Positions 12,294 to 15,372 of a stretch of DNA of 64,000 nucleotides are shown here, one piece after another. The stretch is from contig NZ_VORR01000020.1 of assembly GCF_007997085.1 (NCBI RefSeq), forward strand, positions 1 through 64,000, read 5' to 3'. Numbering within the stretch: position 1 is the stretch's first letter; the number at the start of each line of letters is the position of its first letter. Origin of the DNA: Polaribacter sp. IC066 (GTDB taxonomy: Bacteria > Bacteroidota > Bacteroidia > Flavobacteriales > Flavobacteriaceae). Position numbers and translations under genes: made by a program. Under the pieces are notes generated by a model, which searched no databases, was not told the DNA's origin, and saw only the letters and a list, made by a program, of their open reading frames with translations.

Positions 12294-12816
12294 GTTTAAA
12301 TTTGATTATCTTTTAAATTGACATTCTAGAATTGTAGCTCAAACAAGTGAATGTTTTCCGTAAAACCTCATCGCATATATTGGCGTTTTAACGATTAAGA
12401 GGCTAGCATTTCAAATAGTGAATATTCAAAATATATATAGCTGTTAAAAATTTATATTTTTTATTCAGTATTACCGTATAATTTTGTGTCTTTTAAACTA
12501 GTTTTTAAAGAACACATACCTAATATAGGTAAGTGTGATTTATTTTTAGTTCATTAATACCAAATTAGCCTTATAATGCCCTAATAAATCGTTTTTTTTC
12601 CGCTTACCTATTATCAAAAATAATTACAGTAACGATGCTATGCTAATTACTTTTCATTTCAATTAATCAAAAAATAATTCAATTTACTTGCACGTCACTA
12701 TAAAAATAAATTTATATAATATCTATGATAAGTAATAAGGTGGGTAGGTTATTCTATTCGGTACGCCATAAAAATAAATAAAATATCGTTTATAAAATCT
12801 GATTGCTGTATTTTCG
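12294..12816. other. Intergenic stretch upstream of recG, no gene seen
   Basis: About 520 AT-rich bases. The only structure noted is an imperfect inverted repeat near 12511-12535, cacatacctaatataggtaagtgtg in two facing halves. No clear TAnnTTTG promoter close to recG was found. Confidence 0.4.
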
Positions 12817-15372
12817 TTGTCTAGATTTTACAAGTTGATTTTAAGCAATCCAATAACATATATTCCCGGAATTAGTGCACAAAGAGCAAGTCTTATATAT
12901 TCAGAATTGGGTATTAAAACATGCAATGATTTACTTAACTTTTTTCCTTTTCGGTATATTGATAAAACACAGTTTTATGCTATAAAGGATTTACAACCAA
13001 ACTCTTCTGAAGTACAGATTGTTGGTAAAATAACACGCATTACATCCGTAGCACAAAAAAGAGGCAGTCGGTTAGTTGCTACTTTTCAAGATGCAACAGG
13101 AGCGATGGAGTTGGTTTGGTTTCGCGGACAAAAATGGATTAAAGATTCTTTGAAAATTAATGAACCTTATGTAGTGTATGGTAAACTGAATCATTATAAC
13201 GGTTCTTTTAGTATTCCACATCCAGAAATGGAATTGGTTACAGAGTATAAAAAGAAGTTGCAGACTAAAATGCAGCCTGTATATCCGTCTTCAGAAAAAC
13301 TTACAAATTCAGGTATTTCTAATAAGTTGATGCGCGGTTATATTCAGATCTTATTGCAGCAATTTTACGATAAAATGCAAGAAAGCTTATCACAAGAAAT
13401 TATAGACGATTTTAAATTGATGCCCAAAAAAGATGCTTTTTTAAATGTGCATTTTCCTAAAAGTCAAGAAAATTTAGCCAAAGCAGAATATCGTTTAAAA
13501 TTTGAAGAATTATTTTTTATTCAAATGCAGTTATTGAGAAAGAAACTCATCAACAAAACAAAAATTAAAGGCTTTATTTTCGAAAATGTAGGCGCTATTT
13601 TTAATGAATTTTATGCAGATAAATTACCTTTCGATTTAACCAATGCTCAAAAGCGAGTGTTAAAAGAAATAAGAAAAGATGTGGCTTCTGGTGCACATAT
13701 GAATCGTCTTTTACAAGGAGATGTAGGTTCAGGAAAAACAATTGTGGCTTTACTTTCTATGCTTTTGGCAATTGATAACGGTTTTCAGGCTACTATTATG
13801 GCGCCAACAGAAATTTTAGCAAATCAGCATTATATCGCAGTTTCAGAACTTTTACAAGGAATGGATCTTAAGGTAGATATTCTAACAGGTTCTGTAAGAG
13901 TTAAAAAGAGAAGAGAAATTCATGCAAATCTAGAAGACGGAACATTAGATATTTTAATAGGTACACATGCTTTGTTAGAAGATAAGGTGAAATTTAAAAA
14001 TTTAGGAATTGCCATCATCGATGAACAGCATCGTTTTGGAGTAGCACAAAGATCTAAATTGTGGGCTAAAGGTGGGGGAGGTCCATCCCTAACCCTTTCC
14101 GAAGGGAAGGGGACATCTGTGCGGAATCGGTATGAAACTGCCCGTCCATCAACTTATAAATTGATGAAAGAATTGCAATTAGAGCGTAAAAAGAAAACTA
14201 CGGAAGCAAAACAAGTTCTTTGGGAACAATTAAAAACTAAAAAGTTAGATATAAAATTTAGAAGGCAACATCTAATAGATGAATTTATTGTCGATTTTGT
14301 TTCTATAGAAAAAAAGTTAATTATTGAAGTTGATGGCAAATATCACAATAGCAAAGAACAACAGGAGGCCGATGAATTAAGAACAACAATTTTACAGGAG
14401 TTAGGTTTCAAAGTTATCAGATTCACCAACGAAGAAGTACTAGGAAACACAGATAAAATCGTAATACAGATAACACAGCAGTTGGAAAACCTCCCCTTCG
14501 GGGAGGTTGTAGGGGCTTCTCCTCCCCACATTCTAGTCATGACCGCAACACCAATTCCTAGAACTTTGGCAATGTCTGTGTATGGAGATTTAGATATTTC
14601 TGTGATTGACGAATTACCTCCAGGAAGAAAAGAAGTAAAAACAGTGCATCGTTTTGATAGCAATCGGTTGTCGGTTTTTAAATTTATGCGAGATGAAATT
14701 GCCAAAGGTAGACAAGTATACATCGTATATCCGTTAATTCAGGAATCTGAAACCATGGATTATAAAGATTTGATGGATGGGTTTGAGAGTGTTTCTCGCG
14801 AGTTTCCTACACCAGAATATCAAATTAGTATTGTACACGGAAAAATGAAACCTGCAGACAAAGAGTATGAAATGCAACGTTTTGTGAAGCATGAAACTCA
14901 AATTATGGTGGCCACAACTGTAATTGAAGTGGGTGTAAATGTACCCAATGCAAGTGTGATGATTATTGAAAGTTCAGAACGTTTTGGCTTATCGCAATTA
15001 CATCAATTAAGAGGGCGCGTTGGGCGAGGGGCAGACCAAAGTTATTGCATACTATTATCGAGTTTTAAGTTATCCGCAGAAGCAAAAACACGTTTAAAAA
15101 CGATGGTAGAAACTACAGACGGCTTTAAAATTGCCGAGGTAGATTTAAAGTTACGCGGTCCAGGAAATTTAATGGGAACCCAACAAAGTGGCGTATTAAA
15201 TTTAAATATTGCAGATGTTGTGAAAGACTCTAAAATTTTGGTATCTGCAAGAAATACCGCAATTGCTTTATTGCAAGACGATTCTAATTTATCGAAACCA
15301 GAAAATTTACCCATCAAAAGAACCTTTATTCAGGTTTCTAAATCCTCAAAAATTTGGAGTATTATTAGTTAA
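12817..15372 (+). CDS. recG: ATP-dependent DNA helicase RecG carrying an in-frame DUF559 insertion
   Basis: RecG remodels stalled replication forks and branched DNA. This frame has 851 residues against about 700 usual; the surplus is an insert at residues of about 419-568. The N-terminal wedge/OB region (LQPNSSEVQIVGKI) is followed by the helicase core. Walker A is GDVGSGKT (about 302-309), motif Ia is MAPTEILANQH and motif II is DEQHRFG (402-408). The insert comes next, then motif III TATPIPRT (576-583), motif V/VI region VATTVIEVGVNVPNAS, HQLRGRVGRG and the C-terminal RecG domain. Motifs II and III normally lie about 20 residues apart, so the insert splits the ATPase core. There is no ATG: the frame opens at 12796, and TTG at 12817 or 12835 is the best start. 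The helicase motifs themselves are intact, so whether the product works is open. Confidence 0.85.
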   Translation: MSRFYKLILSNPITYIPGISAQRASLIYSELGIKTCNDLLNFFPFRYIDKTQFYAIKDLQPNSSEVQIVGKITRITSVAQKRGSRLVATFQDATGAMELVWFRGQKWIKDSLKINEPYVVYGKLNHYNGSFSIPHPEMELVTEYKKKLQTKMQPVYPSSEKLTNSGISNKLMRGYIQILLQQFYDKMQESLSQEIIDDFKLMPKKDAFLNVHFPKSQENLAKAEYRLKFEELFFIQMQLLRKKLINKTKIKGFIFENVGAIFNEFYADKLPFDLTNAQKRVLKEIRKDVASGAHMNRLLQGDVGSGKTIVALLSMLLAIDNGFQATIMAPTEILANQHYIAVSELLQGMDLKVDILTGSVRVKKRREIHANLEDGTLDILIGTHALLEDKVKFKNLGIAIIDEQHRFGVAQRSKLWAKGGGGPSLTLSEGKGTSVRNRYETARPSTYKLMKELQLERKKKTTEAKQVLWEQLKTKKLDIKFRRQHLIDEFIVDFVSIEKKLIIEVDGKYHNSKEQQEADELRTTILQELGFKVIRFTNEEVLGNTDKIVIQITQQLENLPFGEVVGASPPHILVMTATPIPRTLAMSVYGDLDISVIDELPPGRKEVKTVHRFDSNRLSVFKFMRDEIAKGRQVYIVYPLIQESETMDYKDLMDGFESVSREFPTPEYQISIVHGKMKPADKEYEMQRFVKHETQIMVATTVIEVGVNVPNASVMIIESSERFGLSQLHQLRGRVGRGADQSYCILLSSFKLSAEAKTRLKTMVETTDGFKIAEVDLKLRGPGNLMGTQQSGVLNLNIADVVKDSKILVSARNTAIALLQDDSNLSKPENLPIKRTFIQVSKSSKIWSIIS
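14072..14529 (+). mobile_element. In-frame DUF559 nuclease-like element with palindromic ends
   Basis: The insert encodes a DUF559 (Vsr-like, PD-(D/E)xK-related) domain. It shows TTEAKQVLWEQLKTKKLD, KFRRQHLIDEFIVDF with an acidic residue at about 493, and LIIEVDGKYHN with E504 and D506, ending in a helix IVIQITQQL. At the left end is the hairpin ccctttcc/gggaaggg (14093-14111); at the right end is the perfect hairpin aacctcccc/ggggaggtt (14488-14508). The extremities gtgggggagg (14072-14081) and cctccccac (14521-14529) form a near-perfect terminal inverted repeat. The last bases also encode the conserved PPH of RecG. The insert is about 450 bp, a multiple of three, and contains no stop. No intein (Hint) splice residues are present. 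Confidence 0.8.

Follow-up and report, generated by a model that had tools for sequence, protein, structure and literature searches.

A DUF559 nuclease element with palindromic ends, carried in frame by the recG gene of Polaribacter sp. IC066, and its relatives in Bacteroidota

The recG gene of Polaribacter sp. IC066 (Flavobacteriaceae), located in the first 64,000 nucleotides of contig NZ_VORR01000020.1 (the window), is interrupted in frame by an element encoding a DUF559 nuclease-like domain between two palindromic ends. Comparisons with other genomes suggest, with a probability of about two in three, that this is a mobile nuclease element, palindrome-bounded, frame-transparent and non-splicing, whose life cycle is homing-like. 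An initial annotation of the window had proposed a mobile, frame-keeping and possibly homing-like element, and this view gains support from empty sites in relatives, palindromes of the same type elsewhere and related elements in other genes. Genomes compared are designated by G-numbers and loci by L-numbers, and the "own genome" is that of Polaribacter sp. IC066.

The most direct evidence that a palindrome-to-palindrome unit moves comes from the MetH gene of genome G272, which has two copies of the element at two sites. These copies are alike exactly between their ends, the similarity running from AGCCCCCC-nn-CCCCCAAAGGGGGA to CCCCTTTGGGGGCGGGGGGGGCT, i.e., from palindrome to palindrome, and their ends are cleaner than those of the RecG copy in the window. 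In other genomes, MetH site 2 is occupied by a single in-frame palindrome (G233) or by a pair of palindromes without the nuclease (G453).

Structure of the RecG insert

The recG frame has no internal stop across its 851 codons (12817–15372), and removal of the element leaves 705 codons, matching the RecG of about 700 residues that the initial annotation expected to be restored. The in-frame insertion reported there stands, but the extent assigned to it (14072–14529) was slightly wide and has been refined (Table 1). Hairpins are indeed present at both ends, the right one (14488–14508) being a perfect 9-bp hairpin of the same motif type as the intergenic palindromes of the own genome, but the terminal inverted repeats, which had been called near-perfect, have 82% complementarity over 17 nt (14094–14110/14490–14506). 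The palindromic ends of RecG inserts exceed chance: the strongest 44-nt fold fell within the top 10% of local blocks at the right end in 22 of 24 filled RecG genes, and at the left end in 14. All 19 of these 24 copies with ends placed by pattern are in phase at both ends and have a length that is a multiple of three; 13 of the 19 are 438 bp long (range for RecG copies, 438–474 bp), and the 19 inserts have S or G as their first residue and A or V as their last. As the lengths of RecG copies are divisible by three and the frame stays open across both ends, the host protein would gain an extra folded nuclease domain, which may sit on flexible linkers encoded by the palindromes, and the entire chain, RecG plus insert, is presumably translated and folded.

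Table 1. Positions, in the window, of the recG frame and of the parts of the inserted element
Feature	Position	Strand	Details
recG reading frame, interrupted in frame by the element	12817..15372	+	TTG start listed; 851 aa (amino acids); NCBIfam RecG 872.7 bits (cut-off 711)
Whole element	14080..14517	+	438 bp = 146 codons; GGTCCA...GGGGCT; in codon phase at both ends; boundaries set against other filled and empty RecG genes (G029/G034)
Left end	14080..14112	no strand	Terminal segment plus hairpin CCTTTCCGAAGGGAAGG (14094–14110)
Lead segment	14131..14187	+	Conserved (YETARPSTYKLMKELQLER)
DUF559 (PF04480) nuclease-like domain	14188..14487	+	D...ExD-G residues: D 14293–14295, E 14326–14328, D 14332–14334
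Right end	14488..14517	no strand	Hairpin AACCTCCCC-TTC-GGGGAGGTT (14488–14508) plus terminal tail ending GTAGGGGCT

The DUF559 domain recognized in the initial annotation corresponds to a PF04480 match at RecG residues 458–556 (101.7 bits, cut-off 20.6), flanked by DEAD and Helicase_C domains. With a profile score above the curated cut-off and the D...ExD residue set, it belongs to DUF559, and the insert is predicted to encode a Vsr/EDxHD-like nuclease domain that probably cuts DNA. Modelled alone, the insert has a compact core and low-confidence ends that are the translated palindromes (mean predicted local distance difference test score, pLDDT, 80; predicted template modelling score, pTM, 0.73); the prediction for whole RecG was poor (mean pLDDT 62, pTM 0.31) and was not used. 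The best match in PDB is 3hrl, a DUF559-type protein from Neisseria (profile E 3e-28; Foldseek E 5e-7). The second-best, 3r3p, is the catalytic domain of the homing endonuclease I-Bth0305I (profile E 3e-8; Foldseek E 3e-5), and the nuclease of the insert is, thus, related to a proven homing endonuclease in both profile and fold.

Inteins have Asn or Gln as their last residue and are followed by Cys, Ser or Thr. The initial annotation saw no intein splice motifs, and a Pfam scan of the RecG frame likewise found no intein family; given the lack of a Hint or intein family and the Ala or Val at the end of the placed inserts, an intein was rejected. A group I or group II intron was also rejected, as Rfam gave no match at E ≤ 0.1, and hence no intron RNA, between positions 12800 and 15400.

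Filled, empty and relic-like RecG sites

A RecG search in 59 genomes, including the own genome, yielded some match in 58, and in nearly all the insert-free genomes listed the alignment is interrupted near query residues 404–407 and 550–556. RecG genes were read in 30 of the 36 genomes drawn from the genus; the other six genomes are G010, G011, G014 and G025 (frames of 699–708 aa, not read), G028 (split gene) and G031 (no clear RecG). The site is filled in 13 of these 30 genes, with an insert region of 149–162 codons, empty in 10, with a minimal linker of 4 codons, and occupied by a longer, intermediate linker of 7–16 codons in seven. One of these seven, in G006, still has a right-end palindrome but no nuclease, and the other six may be relics too. 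The initial annotation had named an empty site in related Flavobacteriaceae as a point to check, and one third of the same-genus genes read have such a site; the outcome that it considered damaging, in which every relative is filled and palindromes are absent elsewhere, was not observed.

The precision of insertion is best seen in G029 (filled) and G034 (empty), which are sisters on the RecG tree (support 96). The filled gene reads AAT/AGCCCA...GGGGCT/TCT, with exactly 450 bp more than the empty one, and there is no target duplication in this pair. Three filled genes, those of G008, G012 and G018, have lost the second catalytic Asp and have no palindrome discernible by eye, although the right-end fold of G012 still scores. 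The split RecG of G028 consists of two reading frames (186 + 535 aa; G028:C1:1121164–1123252) in a one-contig genome, reflecting either a sequencing error or a broken recG.

Other host genes and distribution

DUF559 is present in 30 of the 59 relatives scanned, in 188 of 397 genomes from the family and in 222 of 395 from the phylum. Among the 150 best places listed in the family scan, 59 were in frames of at least 300 aa; the hosts of 58 of these loci (all but that of G020), named by eye, included LeuS (23), RecG (11), MetH (11), HemD (9), IleS (2) and HisD (2). A scan of named genomes revealed at least 571 relatives. Of the best 80, 63 were in frames of at least 320 aa and 17 were stand-alone frames of at most 174 aa, many of them from Prevotella; among these 80, the closest named matches were from Polaribacter and Tenacibaculum, and the RecG hosts belonged to Polaribacter, Tenacibaculum, Tamlana, Maribacter, Algibacter, Flavobacterium, Aequorivita, Winogradskyella and Wocania. 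Profile searches confirmed RecG, LeuS, IleS, MetH, HisD, ValS, HsdR, HutU, MazG and guanylate kinase as hosts, and Pfam domains indicated a second LeuS site, PurL, an IcmF-type mutase, a UvrD-type helicase and ABC-F-type, Ham1-type and RNase H-type proteins. The earlier suggestion that the element enters essential genes without breaking their frame is, thus, consistent with the presence of related elements in frame in many other genes.

Beyond Flavobacteriaceae, DUF559 inserts are present in restriction-modification proteins (L225, L226, L228, L231–L234, L239 and L240), one of which was identified as HsdR by profile, the others being named by eye. Carriage by plasmids or phages was considered and rejected: 35 of 72,556 plasmid records and 2 of 50,697 phage records matched, all of them distantly (less than 60% identity).

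Palindromes elsewhere in the genomes

A palindrome model based on 17 sequences, partly typed, recovered 36 copies in the own genome and between 0 and 57 in 35 other genomes of the genus. The initial annotation had called for a search for the same ends elsewhere in the genome, and they occur there also without DUF559; some intergenic palindromes form inverted pairs about 90–150 bp apart with no DUF559 between them. All 13 genomes with an intact fused nuclease have palindromes (1–57), whereas 16 of the 23 without one have none (p 7e-6 for all 36 genomes; p 1.4e-4 when only those at least 90% complete are counted); the stand-alone DUF559 genes of G006 and G025 were not scored as fused. Applied to 46 loci of other genera, the model gave 45 matches, about 33 of which, counted by eye, are at the ends of elements. 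The own genome also has a palindrome of the same type within an open IcmF-like frame with B12-binding, MeaB and mutase domains (C85:29118–29156; L178).

The stand-alone DUF559 genes of Flavobacteriaceae (L182–L221) are often found amid longer, nested, inverted palindromes of another sequence type. The RecG-type model gave five weak matches beside these genes in 40 loci, so the stand-alone genes and the RecG-type elements mostly have different ends.

Movement between species

To explain the filled state on a RecG tree of 41 hosts, built without the inserts, nine changes are required, at least seven of them on well-supported branches. The trees of insert and host were compared for the 21 intact RecG copies, the three decayed ones being excluded. 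In approximately unbiased (AU) tests, the insert data rejected the host tree (p 4e-6), the host data rejected the insert tree (p 1.6e-4), and the insert data also rejected the genus as a single clade (p 0.013); the insert tree does not, therefore, match the host tree, as it would after vertical inheritance of a fusion. Single-clade tests rejected the grouping of G004 with G029 on the insert (p 0.005) and of G004 with G026 on the host (p 0.002), and did not reject G000 with G009 on the insert (p 0.10) or the trio G000, G009 and G029 (p 0.19, 0.23).

In two groups of close relatives, synonymous divergence indicates an insert much younger than the RecG gene around it. The synonymous sites that differ in insert and host numbered 5/97 and 101/436 for G021/G001 (p 1.6e-5), 17/95 and 229/441 for G022/G027 (p 4e-10), and 18/95 and 225/440 for G017/G027 (p 7e-9). 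Two of five more distant RecG pairs had marginally lower values for the insert (p 0.02, 0.05) and three gave no signal; the dead inserts of G008 and G018 did not differ from their hosts (20/98 vs 102/441, p 0.69).

Colonization and decay

A tree of 163 DUF559 domains sorts by host gene and site, with 16 changes (minimum 13; mean after shuffling 103.6), although it is built from few columns, has many open forks and leaves out the stand-alone genes of Prevotella. The copies from RecG, LeuS, IleS, MetH, HisD and the mutase, together with two helicase/other copies, form a group of 92 (support 96), and 39 stand-alone genes fall in a separate group of 40 (support 99). Such grouping by host site suggests that new sites are colonized rarely and that a colonized site then spreads.

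The catalytic residues have been retained in 21 of 24 RecG copies, 27 of 27 LeuS copies, 16 of 16 MetH copies and 48 of 48 stand-alone genes. In an old LeuS group of the genus, by contrast, neither intact residues (0/18) nor end hairpins (0/18) remain, and the LeuS of the own genome (L003/L045, C92:89409–89696) has a dead DUF559 insert without palindromes in this clade of 18. Of 115 fused copies, 84 are intact with an end hairpin, 9 intact without one, 2 dead with a hairpin and 20 dead without. The ratio of non-synonymous to synonymous substitution (dN/dS) is 0.04–0.26 for the pairs of RecG inserts computed and 0.01–0.36 for dead LeuS inserts, indicating purifying selection on the former and mostly also on the latter, in which case dead inserts may be kept for folding of the host protein.

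Proposed mechanism and significance

The RecG copy is probably an intact mobile element, in which a DUF559 frame lacking its own start and stop is enclosed by two GC-rich palindromic ends in inverted orientation, and insertion would occur precisely into protein-coding genes, without target duplication wherever this can be read. The most likely route is that the Vsr/EDxHD-type nuclease makes a break, into which repair copies the palindrome-bounded element; DUF559 would then be expected to cut DNA at palindromes or at the empty site, driving the copying. Invasion of a new gene would be a rare event, and that of empty alleles of an already occupied site in other species a more frequent one. Nuclease and palindromes would subsequently decay, and the insert would either persist as a dead domain or disappear, with a scar left behind. 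A similar cycle of invasion, decay and loss has been described for homing introns (PMC3943268).

A bolder proposal is that these palindrome-bounded, frame-transparent elements constitute a class of selfish element in their own right, widespread in Bacteroidota, which homes into loops of housekeeping proteins and remains there as translated domains, without splicing of either RNA or protein, and in which the same nuclease–palindrome pair also seeds the genome with short non-autonomous palindrome pairs, DUF559 being a non-HUH counterpart of the RAYT transposases discussed below. This full version has somewhat less than an even chance of being correct. No description of in-frame DUF559 elements was found in the literature, coverage of which largely excluded subscription papers and preprints, and there is a real chance that they form a class of their own. 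If so, a nuclease-coding mobile element can invade coding genes without a splicing device, by being itself an open, in-frame, foldable domain. This would account for the insertions that only some lineages of Bacteroidota have in tRNA synthetases, MetH, RecG and other enzymes, would give DUF559 a role and REP-like palindromes a non-HUH nuclease partner, and would provide a testable source of new protein domains.

Several observations weigh against the main interpretation, a mobile nuclease element with a homing-like cycle. The left hairpins of RecG inserts are weaker than the right ones, and the four LeuS elements of the genus differ in their end sequences. The signal of young inserts is confined to the two groups of close relatives, and within one of them the pair G022/G017 is not significant (p 0.086); none of six LeuS pairs, from four copies, has a significantly younger insert, and in one of the LeuS pairs compared, G013/G005, the insert is older than its host (p 0.002). 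The 22 dead copies represent four lineages only (the old LeuS group, with 18, RecG of G008/G018, RecG of G012 and HemD L143), and as two of these, G012 and L143, still have a scored fold at one end, the joint decay of catalysis and palindromes is only a tendency. In phylogenetically independent pairs, nuclease and palindromes agree in 5.1 of 6, with 0.9 showing no difference and none opposing (median p 0.06), but such pairs are few, and counts of 1–4 palindromes per genome may mostly represent the element's own ends. G015, with 25 palindromes, lacks DUF559, and G006 has 20 with no fused copy, only a stand-alone gene of another group. Finally, homing by break repair usually carries flanking sequence along, and synonymous divergence does not fall towards the insert in the G022, G017 and G027 pairs; that of the G021/G001 flanks is patchy, with one low stretch 60–120 codons upstream (1 of 41). 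In the G022/G017/G027 group, the unit seems, thus, to have moved without flanking DNA, unlike in classical homing, and the lack of clear co-conversion leaves room for excision and insertion of the REP/RAYT kind or for another mobilizing enzyme.

Alternative explanations

Such an enzyme is central to the first alternative, in which a Y1/RAYT-type transposase or host repair mobilizes the palindromic ends and DUF559 is tolerated cargo. Insertion without target duplication would suit a Y1 mechanism. Palindromes without DUF559 also fit, whether paired or single, intergenic or in frame (MetH site 2 of G453 and G233, and the IcmF-like gene of the own genome), as do the 25 palindromes of G015 and the end folds of the two dead lineages. 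However, palindrome number, which tracks the intact fused nuclease, has no clear association with Y1 transposases (p 0.08 over 36 genomes; independent pairs 1.4 for, 1.3 against): G001, G021 and G029 have 34–54 palindromes each and no Y1 match, and none of 15 selected Y1 genes has an R1-type palindrome within 1 kb. In addition, the consensus of the 17 sequences has GAGTT ahead of the hairpin, and no equivalent of the GTAG or GTGG foot located 0–2 nt 5' of the hairpin in the RAYT-associated palindromes described in PMC6006769. Given the lack of a clear association with palindromes, mobilization by a Y1 transposase is retained only as a rival, and the cargo model as a whole seems unlikely.

It is improbable that the element instead serves its host, DUF559 being a Vsr-like repair or anti-phage nuclease shielded from loss by its embedding in a housekeeping gene. 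Some hosts are restriction-modification proteins, DUF559 is stated to be frequent in Vsr-like nucleases, and a Caulobacter DUF559 protein is reported to be responsible for the SOS response in cells lacking a methyltransferase (PMC12907096), all of which would fit such a function, but the patchy presence, the decay, the empty sites in close relatives, the palindromic ends and the precise boundaries of the unit speak against it.

An old domain fusion, in which RecG acquired a nuclease once and passed it on vertically for use as a helicase–nuclease, is very improbable: all 24 RecG inserts in the tree are at one site, with their DUF559 domains on one side of a branch (unsupported; Shimodaira–Hasegawa-like approximate likelihood ratio test, SH-aLRT, 3) and under purifying selection, and even catalytically dead LeuS inserts are retained (one clade of 18), but this history conflicts with the empty sister genomes, the relics, the disagreement between trees and inserts younger than their hosts, and the same module is present in tRNA synthetases, MetH, HisD, HutU, PurL and other proteins that share no evident requirement for a nuclease. 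The variety of unrelated hosts, the decay and the empty relatives similarly disfavour a useful helicase–nuclease fusion; the initial annotation had offered, as an alternative, a passenger that creates a helicase–nuclease fusion.

Comparison with known systems

The nearest kinds of element are Rickettsia palindromic elements (RPEs; in frame, no nuclease), inteins (spliced) and repetitive extragenic palindromes with their associated tyrosine transposases (REP/RAYT; an HUH enzyme). RPEs are described as palindromic repeats in frame in unrelated protein-coding genes (PMC10969869). The DUF559 elements resemble them in this respect, translation being probable, but RPEs are, by description, about 150 bp long with a short conserved peptide, whereas the elements considered here are from Bacteroidota, are 438–474 bp long in RecG and encode a conserved nuclease that is mostly catalytically intact.

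Inteins are in-frame inserts at recurrent sites in conserved housekeeping proteins; they spread between species and pass through a cycle of invasion, decay and loss. DUF559 elements are similar to inteins with a homing endonuclease in their in-frame position, housekeeping hosts, recurrent sites, spread and decay, but they have no intein family match or end residues and have palindromic DNA ends, and the insert would have to remain in the protein. The resemblance to the EDxHD/Vsr-like I-Bth0305I concerns the catalytic domain. That enzyme is recorded as a protein of a mobile intron, whereas no intron or intein was found around the DUF559 domain of RecG, for which cleavage is a prediction.

Like REP/RAYT (TnpA-REP) systems, the DUF559 elements go with intergenic palindromes that are numerous in a genome and sometimes form inverted pairs, with no target duplication seen and with a link between the palindromes and a nuclease gene bounded by the same palindromes. 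They differ in having DUF559 in place of the HUH/Y1 transposase, no GTAG/GTGG foot and no clear association with Y1 genes. Stand-alone DUF559 genes, such as that encoding 3hrl in Neisseria, share the domain, but they are small, with their own start and stop, and in Flavobacteriaceae most of those sampled group apart from the in-frame copies.

The LeuS loop

The pattern at LeuS resembles that at RecG. In a draw of 58 genomes of the genus, 57 had a match to LeuS, of which about 31 aligned across the insert (by eye); in most others the alignment is interrupted near query residues 312–322 and 441–448. The LeuS loci read comprise four fresh copies, 18 old copies and 11 without DUF559. In some loci of the latter kind, unrelated in-frame repeats occupy the loop of the editing domain (L386 in G015, L392 in G028, and L383, L384 and L391), including a GTCATTGCGAG..CTCGTAATGAC repeat, a CTGAGCGTAGTCGAAG repeat and CCAACAA tandem repeats. 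The presence of these other repeats, in frame, suggests that this loop is a hotspot for insertion. In the LeuS of G424 (L134), several tandem repeats (GSNLNPEVPSGREG and similar) lie upstream of DUF559 within the insert region.

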